Positions 1,959-2,666 of a stretch of DNA of 5,721 nt are shown one piece after another. The first letter of the stretch is position 1, and every line of letters begins with the position of its first letter. Made by a program: the position numbers and the translations under genes. Origin of the DNA: Myxococcota bacterium. Its GTDB lineage: Bacteria; Myxococcota; Polyangia; GCA-2747355; JAKLHH01. The notes beneath the pieces are model-generated. The model searched no databases and was not told where the DNA came from. It worked only from the letters and a program-made list of their open reading frames with translations. Location: positions 1-5,721 of the forward strand of contig JAKLHH010000560.1 in the NCBI GenBank assembly GCA_022710245.1. The letters run 5' to 3'.

Positions 1959-2666
1959 ATGCGGATGATCAAGATTGTGATCGCGACGCTGCTCCTCGGC
2001 AGCGCTGGTCACGCCTCGGCGCAGGTGCTGGGGGCCTGTGGCAGCAAGGACGCGCTCAAGCCGGCGCCGCGCCCGGCCGCGCAGATCGGCGTGGTGACGC
2101 GGGTGCCGCTCCCGGGCGAAGCCGCGCCGAACTTCGAGCTGACCGCCGTGGTCGGCCAGCAGATCAAGCAGGTGCGCCTCTCCGACTACGACGGCAAGTG
2201 GCGGGTCGTCTGCTTCTACCCCGCCGACTTCACCTTCGTTTGACCGACCGAGCTGTCCGCGGTCGCGGACAAGTACGCGCAGCTGCAGAAGCTCGGCGTC
2301 GAGGTCATCGCCATCAGCGGCGACACGCACTTCTCGCACTGGATGTTCAAGAAGACCTCTCCCACGGTGAAGAAGGTCCAGTTCGCCATGGCGGCGGATC
2401 CAACTCACGCCGTGTCGAGGGCGTACGGCGTCTACAACGAGCAGTCCGGCGTCAATCAGCGGGGCCGCTTCATCATCAGCCCCAAGGGCGCCATCATGGC
2501 GGTCGAGGTGCTGACCGGTCCGGTTGGCCGGAACGTCGATGAGCTGATCCGGCAGGTCCAGGCGATGCAGGCGGTGGAGAAGGAGAAGGGCAAGGCGGCG
2601 CCGGCGGGCTGGAAGCCGGGCGGCAGGCTCATCACCACCGGGGTCGGCGACATCGGCCGCTACTGA
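1959..2666 (+). CDS. Exported selenocysteine-containing peroxiredoxin (AhpC/Prx1-like), TGA at codon 95 read as Sec
   Basis: Predicted thiol or selenol peroxidase reducing hydrogen peroxide or organic hydroperoxides. ATG 1959 is chosen because GGAG (1947-1950) sits 8 nt upstream and the product begins with a signal peptide: MRMIK, hydrophobic core to about residue 16, then ASA|Q at 21/22. An upstream in-frame ATG at 1899 has no ribosome binding site. The reading frame has one interruption, TGA at 2241-2243. The sequence around it is FYPADFTFV-U-PTEL, where the family has FYPADFTFVCPTEL, so TGA replaces exactly the peroxidatic Cys. PxxxTxxU residues P88, T92 and U95 and a candidate active-site Arg168 are present. 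After TGA the frame runs 140 codons with full family similarity to the stop at 2664. The usual C-terminal VCPxxWKPG reads AAPAGWKPG, with Ala214 in place of the resolving Cys, so it would act as a 1-Sec type. The only cysteines are C27 and C85. Alternatives are a nonsense mutation or a sequencing error. Confidence 0.88.
2241..2243 (+). other. In-frame TGA selenocysteine codon at the peroxidatic position
   Basis: This TGA falls at codon 95, between FTFV and PTEL, in the single most conserved catalytic position of AhpC/Prx1 peroxiredoxins. Coding similarity continues in the same frame on both sides. Standard gene calling would cut the gene here and restart at ATG 2343, losing about 33 residues of conserved sequence between the two pieces. 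Confidence 0.87.
2244..2271 (+). promoter_or_regulatory. Bacterial SECIS element
   Basis: GTCCGC (2255-2260) pairs perfectly with GCGGAC (2265-2270) around a GGTC loop (2261-2264). T2254-A2271 extends the stem to 7 bp. The 6-bp stem begins 11 nt after the TGA and the loop begins 17 nt after it. Bacterial SECIS elements lie inside the coding sequence just 3' of UGA and present a G/GU-containing apical loop to SelB; the E. coli fdhF element also has GGUC in its loop at a very similar distance. I see no clear bulged U in this stem, unlike the E. coli element. Confidence 0.78.

Follow-up and report, generated by a model that had tools for sequence, protein, structure and literature searches.

Selenocysteine peroxiredoxins and the gene in the window

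A 2001 paper reportedly described PrxU of Peptoclostridium (Eubacterium) acidaminophilum as a selenocysteine (Sec) peroxiredoxin. That paper is cited in the portions of PMC9312934 and PMC13188914 available to us, and the available text of selenoproteome surveys recognizes a Sec peroxiredoxin (Prx) family with a TxxU motif that the gene studied here shares; a table of PMC1794560 gives the figure 12 for Sec peroxiredoxin, with three named in Anaeromyxobacter dehalogenans, and PMC2398784 reports 253 from an ocean metagenome. The 5,721-nucleotide (nt) contig JAKLHH010000560.1 of a Myxococcota bacterium (the window, meaning the whole stretch analyzed) carries, judging from comparative sequence, a selenoprotein gene of this known kind, belonging to a variant clade whose members are predicted to be exported and whose cysteines are arranged unusually. 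Because Sec peroxiredoxins were already known from PrxU and the surveys, as an earlier note on this DNA had also stated, the Sec finding itself is not new. What we did not find described, within the literature as far as it was available to us, is a clade that combines a signal-like N-terminus with a VLGxC motif and lacks the C-terminal resolving Cys.

The gene is read in a single frame on the forward strand of the window from 1959 to 2666, comprising 94 codons, a TGA at 2241 to 2243, 140 further codons, and a stop TGA at 2664 to 2666. The in-frame TGA stands at residue 95 and lies at the peroxidatic position within FTFV-TGA-PTEL. Two adjacent open reading frames that the earlier note took for halves of one peroxiredoxin do share this frame, and each half separately matched the Pfam family AhpC-TSA (E = 9e-10 upstream and 4.8e-19 downstream; 1.5e-37 when joined). 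The protein scored 128.7 bits on PF00578 (cutoff, 26) and contains PxxxTxx(C/U). Translation and alignment agreed with the note that the only break is the TGA at the catalytic position and that homology continues for 140 codons past it, a region with no frameshift and no further stop. Pro88, Thr92, and Arg168 were invariant in an alignment of 16 sequences, and we take Arg168 to be the active-site Arg of peroxiredoxins. The G+C content per codon position was 0.681/0.468/0.936 before the TGA and 0.621/0.443/0.943 after it, and this similarity indicates that the downstream half still resembles coding DNA.

Conservation of the TGA and selection on the downstream region

One independent scan of genome contigs recovered five relatives, labelled Myxococcota (L001), Spirochaetota (L002 and L003), Calditrichota (L004), and Bacillota (L005), and all five had TGA at the same codon, which is more than chance. 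Within the phylum of genome G001, a threshold of 1e-40 was passed by 10 of 195 genomes, whose 11 places comprised 5 with one TGA and 6 with none. For the phylum of G004, matches at 1e-50 came from 28 of 82 genomes, with one TGA in 31 of 32 places and two in the last (L065, later read as a Cys protein and counted as Cys), and for that of G002, matches at 1e-50 came from 14 of 392 sampled genomes, with one TGA in all 15 places. TGA matches without a locus (G004 C153 and G255 C178) were left out, and a second TGA gene of G202 went uncounted, since L067, its locus, turned out to hold the gene of L040. A plasmid collection yielded 406 records, all at 60% identity or less, the reference PrxU among them.

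The alignment with Cys and Sec relatives that had been suggested also revealed Cys forms, four of them within the window's own clade (P0002, P0004, P0005, and P0006). The pattern that marks a selenoprotein, in which relatives keep the in-frame TGA and Cys homologues have Cys in its position, is thus present. Three database proteins (P0003, P0007, and P0022) have W at the peroxidatic place, presumably a TGA read by another code. In total, 7,576 proteins in the database matched, and downstream halves of 131 to 138 amino acids made up 26 of the 120 matches listed, bearing out the expectation that standard annotation splits the gene. Among 13 of these 26 halves that we inspected, all twelve of 137 to 138 amino acids start directly after PTE.

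Decay of the downstream codons was looked for in relatives, and purifying selection was found instead. Nei-Gojobori ratios of nonsynonymous to synonymous change (dN/dS) 3' of the TGA were 0.145 (window/L001), 0.405 (window/L025), 0.092 (L001/L025), 0.052 (L002/L003), 0.079 (L001/L002), and 0.043 (L004/L039), and by these six comparisons the region after the TGA is under purifying selection.

A hairpin in the coding sequence

In the bacterial Sec insertion sequence (SECIS) model of PMC13188914, as given in its Fig. 2 legend and available text, the apical loop has 3 to 9 nt and the upper stem 4 to 16 bp, a G is found in loop positions 1 and 2, as a rule flanked by an N1-N2 pair, the UGA lies 16 to 37 nt from the apical loop, and the minimum free energy (MFE) is at most -7.5 kcal/mol. 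The hairpin that follows the TGA in the window falls within all four constraints as described there (loop and stem size, loop Gs, spacing, and MFE), with 17 nt between the UGA and the apical loop (2244 to 2260) and an MFE of -12.2 kcal/mol (2252 to 2273). A literature search that combined GGUC, the loop sequence, with SelB, SECIS, and hairpin found no paper.

For the analysis of covariation, we took 90 bases from the TGA at 56 Sec places, including the window and the reference PrxU, and retained 51 distinct sequences after removing five duplicate loci (L024, L038, L067, L068, and L069). Among column pairs within 60 bases, the highest mutual information fell on (17,26), (14,29), and (20,23), which together form a nested stem. 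Pair (17,26), linking the third position of a Ser/Ala/Thr codon with that of an Ala codon, was Watson-Crick in 51 of 51 sequences and used all four pair types; (20,23) was also Watson-Crick in 51 of 51, and (14,29) was so in 44, with 2 further G-U pairs. For the outer pairs, the counts out of 51 were 39 plus 3 G-U at (15,28) and 46 at (13,30). The observed pairing of the three top pairs was reached in 0 of 10,000 synonymous shuffles, in which codons were exchanged among sequences sharing the amino acid and relatedness was not modelled. Mapped on the protein tree, pair states changed at least 12 times at (17,26), at least 7 times at (20,23), and at least 15 times at (14,29). In the seven Cys genes that belong to this set, Watson-Crick pairs were counted by eye at (17,26) in three cases and at (20,23) in three. 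Both of these pairs form in all eight loci of clade A, the clade of the window described below.

Selenocysteine machinery in related genomes

All 25 relatives' genomes with a TGA peroxiredoxin that were searched for the machinery contained selA and/or tRNA-Sec. Among the five genomes of the first scan, in which selB was also searched for, selA was found in all five and selB above the cutoff in four; the fifth (G005) has a selB piece at a contig end, adjoining selA. tRNA-Sec exceeded the cutoff in four of the five, the same four were called SeC by ARAGORN, and the anticodon TCA was found in four. The 20 further genomes with a TGA peroxiredoxin yielded tRNA-Sec in 17, selA in 18, and at least one of the two in all 20. 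Five genomes for which only Cys matches were listed had tRNA-Sec once (G015), selA once (G161), and neither in three cases, and G206, also with a Cys form, carries both. Both were likewise present in each of four genomes picked for close homologues of the FHA/sigma-54 activator encoded next to the peroxiredoxin in the window. These 30 genomes (20 further TGA, five Cys-only, G206, and four FHA/sigma-54) were hand-picked among those found.

A clade separate from PrxU

A 68-row tree placed the window with 12 others in clade A (100/99) and the reference PrxU in a separate clade B of 45 rows with the same support (100/99). To the earlier note we can therefore add that the protein, by its sequence, is not PrxU itself and sits in a sister clade. 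The row nearest the window was L001, at 77% over 186 columns. On the PrxU model NF040737 (cutoff, 270), the window scored 226.9 bits, compared with 408 for the reference PrxU and 323.1 for P0126; eight other clade A members scored 218.7 to 238.4 bits, and all nine were below 270. The window and PrxU have in common the AhpC-type domain, PxxxTxxU, the TGA at the same codon, the position and stem of the SECIS, and a Cys ten residues before Sec, and the PrxU reference protein also shares with the window a Cys at the N-terminal end and Ala where a C-terminal resolving Cys would stand. They differ at the N-terminus, where the window's clade has a hydrophobic, signal-like segment and VLGxC and the PrxU clade has GC[AT]RP. 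Typical 2-Cys peroxiredoxins are more distant, with 193.2 bits for the window on the AhpC model TIGR03137 (cutoff, 272); compared with AhpC, the window has Sec in place of Cys and Ala in place of the resolving Cys of VCP..W. Human peroxiredoxin 4 relies on Cys and has the two cysteines that define a 2-Cys peroxiredoxin; the match begins at residue 44 of the model, and the comparison covers the part from there on.

VLGxC occurs near the N-terminus in 13 of 13 clade A rows. In the structure model of the window protein, a strand is predicted at residues 22 to 26, and the block from 21 to 30 has a mean predicted local distance difference test (pLDDT) score of 90. The C-terminal resolving position in clade A is Ala in 11 rows, Thr in 2, and Cys in none of the 13. 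A Cys ten residues before Sec is found in 13 of 13 rows of clade A, 44 of 45 of clade B, and both intermediate rows, and Phe takes its place in 8 of 8 outgroup AhpC/TSA rows. A strongly hydrophobic segment precedes VLGxC in 12 of 13 clade A rows (P0006 starts too late), and among 43 Sec rows of clade B it was seen in L041 only. No description of an exported subgroup of Sec peroxiredoxins came up in literature searches as far as papers were available to us, in the available text of the surveys, or in term searches of PMC12013277 and PMC8318568; clade members may already be in published lists.

The GC[AT]RP motif of clade B was counted by eye in 38 of 45 rows (e.g., L042, L052, and L083), and GC[ATV] in 41 of 45; no account of its role was found in the Sec peroxiredoxin literature as available to us. 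Of the 45 clade B rows, 11 combine the GC motif at the N-terminus with a resolving Cys at the C-terminus and 2 have neither, and this co-occurrence speaks against a simple swap of one for the other in clade B.

At the thresholds used, four of seven distinct clade A genomes (G002, G004, G202, and G255) have a second TGA peroxiredoxin, and the one of these that was placed in the tree (L082, from G002) fell in clade B. A clade A gene plus a second TGA gene per genome fits one enzyme outside and one inside. At L086 (G202; ∼5928 to 7443), the clade A Sec peroxiredoxin adjoins the second TGA peroxiredoxin on the same strand.

Proposed mechanism and alternative explanations

The conserved TGA, SECIS covariation, purifying selection, and Sec machinery in relatives all support the earlier proposal that Sec occupies the peroxidatic position, and we hold with high confidence that the UGA is decoded as Sec in an intact peroxiredoxin. 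Comparative sequence shows the frame, the conservation of the TGA, the SECIS, the clade, and the missing resolving Cys; how Sec would be inserted in this host, the export of the protein, its peroxidase activity, and its resolving partner we infer as follows. SelB and tRNA-Sec would decode the UGA at 2241 to 2243 as Sec, directed by the hairpin at 2254 to 2271 within the coding sequence; a signal peptide would export the 235-residue peroxiredoxin from the cytoplasm; and the Sec of PxxxTxxU would attack peroxides. Since the usual C-terminal resolving Cys is absent, resolution of the oxidized selenium would fall to another thiol of the protein, Cys27 (of VLGxC) or Cys85, or to an outside thiol or thioredoxin-like reductant.

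Several observations weigh against this interpretation. The machinery searches covered relatives' genomes rather than the window's own host, of the 20 further TGA genomes 3 gave no tRNA-Sec and 2 no selA, and one Cys-only genome has tRNA-Sec and one has selA. Residue 121 is Gly in the window and a nearly invariant Thr elsewhere. The dN/dS for window/L025 is high for the set, probably through an underestimated dS, as a third-position G+C of 0.94 squeezes synonymous change. As for the hairpin, (14,29) is Watson-Crick in just 5 of 8 clade A loci, the stem of L004 is poor, the shuffles take no account of relatedness, and the 45 bases from the UGA have an MFE that is ordinary relative to shuffles (z = 0.06), only the 22-base hairpin being unusual. 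When codons were recoded synonymously at random, following the codon usage of the window, all eight pairs arose in 4.1% of trials and the inner five in 12.2%; because the pairs arise this often, the window hairpin alone is weak evidence, and the comparative set carries the SECIS case. Export was predicted with a hydropathy script.

The location of the machinery evidence in relatives, the private change at residue 121, and the Cys relatives in the same clade would be compatible with a TGA that is a real stop, in a decaying pseudogene, or with a Cys codon miscalled during sequencing or assembly. We consider this very unlikely, as the TGA is common to 51 distinct stretches with a SECIS hairpin covarying at synonymous positions, and the 140 downstream codons lack any frameshift or other stop and are under purifying selection. 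That the database holds the downstream half alone might suggest two separate proteins, one ending at the UGA and one starting after it, but gene callers produce such halves from a UGA, and P0003, P0007, and P0022 are joined, with W there. The cut would also fall within the catalytic motif of one domain, so that neither half would be a peroxidase, and the conserved SECIS would have no use; we give this reading almost no credence. The same three W copies could instead reflect readthrough of the UGA with a residue other than Sec (Trp or Cys, or whatever a reassigned code specifies), which is highly improbable given that the gene's own stop is TGA, that tRNA-Sec with anticodon TCA was found in four of the first five relatives' genomes, and that a SECIS is present.

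A further alternative concerns location only, with a Sec peroxiredoxin that is not soluble and exported because its N-terminus is uncleaved or is a lipoprotein signal. LGAC in the window, P0002, and P0004 resembles, in our view, a lipobox, but the ten other clade A rows carry LGPC, LGTC, or LGLC, which we regard as a poor fit, and Ala or Ser directly before the Q/E/K that precedes VLGxC, presumably the expected signal peptidase I site, is found in 12 of 13 rows; this alternative is rather unlikely. Returning to a soluble, exported Sec enzyme, we tentatively raise a possibility that we consider less likely than not: clade A may be a hitherto unnamed subfamily whose Sec peroxiredoxins are exported, with members in Myxococcota, Spirochaetota, and Calditrichota at the least. 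There, the resolving thiol would have moved from the C-terminus to the VLGxC Cys close to the N-terminus of the mature protein, an Se-S bond would link the N-terminal strand with the active site, and the enzyme would protect the envelope while PrxU-type paralogues act in the cytoplasm. If export is true, this is a selenium peroxidase outside the cytoplasm that needs its own reductant there. Annotation readily overlooks the gene and the rest of its clade, with downstream halves entered alone and the nine scored members below the PrxU naming cutoff.

Features of the peroxiredoxin gene and its surroundings

Table 1. Features of the probable Sec peroxiredoxin gene in the window
Feature	Position	Strand	Remarks
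Probable ribosome-binding site GGAGGT	1947-1952	+	Six bases 5' of ATG at 1959; putative, by eye
Sec-containing peroxiredoxin, 235 residues, Sec95	1959-2663	+	Stop TGA at 2664-2666; translation, profile searches, tree
Predicted signal peptide, residues 1-21	1959-2021	+	ASA then QVLG; hydropathy script
VLGxC motif QVLGACG, Cys27	2022-2042	+	Mature position 6 if cleaved after residue 21; 13/13 clade A
Cys85	2211-2213	+	Ten residues before Sec
TGA read as Sec (very probable), peroxidatic position	2241-2243	+	Frame and same TGA in relatives
SECIS hairpin	2254-2271	+	7-bp stem, 2254-2260 with 2265-2271; loop GGUC, 2261-2264; comparative set and fold
KAAPAGWKPG	2592-2621	+	Ala in place of AhpC C-terminal resolving Cys (VCP..W)

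No sigma-70 promoter was found in a scan of window positions 1700 to 3030, and no Rfam match above the cutoff was found anywhere in the window. The FHA/sigma-54 activator gene lies upstream of the peroxiredoxin gene; in Myxococcota, the phylum of G001, 54 of 195 genomes had homologues of it at 1e-90, with at most 51% identity over nearly the full length. From this comparison, which covered that phylum, and from L001 being the nearest tree row, a myxococcotal source of the window is probable. No connection of the neighboring window genes to the peroxiredoxin was seen. Across seven clade A loci and the window (frames of at least 90 amino acids, E of 1e-8), the shared neighborhood consisted of the peroxiredoxins, their antisense frames, and a single small pair (L003:1512-1835 and L004:1132-1530, 32% over 91 amino acids). 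At individual loci the neighbors are suggestive, with a CCP/MauG-type peroxidase at L087, a DsbH-type thioredoxin, rubrerythrin, nitroreductase, and ferritin at L085, and the second peroxiredoxin at L086; other clade A neighbors are unrelated (AraC-type regulator, TonB plug, MatE, PBP, and subtilase).

Downstream in the window, a secreted-looking protein at 3014 to 3931 (+) has two C-terminal repeats around SEPxDPxGWSxNYLC and no Pfam or NCBIfam match. A 16-base unit in 3.2 perfect tandem copies (3923 to 3974, +) spans the stop codon of the preceding frame. Further along, a LanC-like protein is encoded at 4010 to 5269 (-; PF05147, E = 2.4e-32), followed by a 21-residue frame, MKTKTNVQAGRGLIRMRMVIR, at 5519 to 5584 (+) and an open frame, noted by eye, beginning MKKLTLKKTTVKTLTL at 5663 to 5721 (+). 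Both frames look, in our view, like leaders of small peptide precursors next to the gene for the LanC-like protein.
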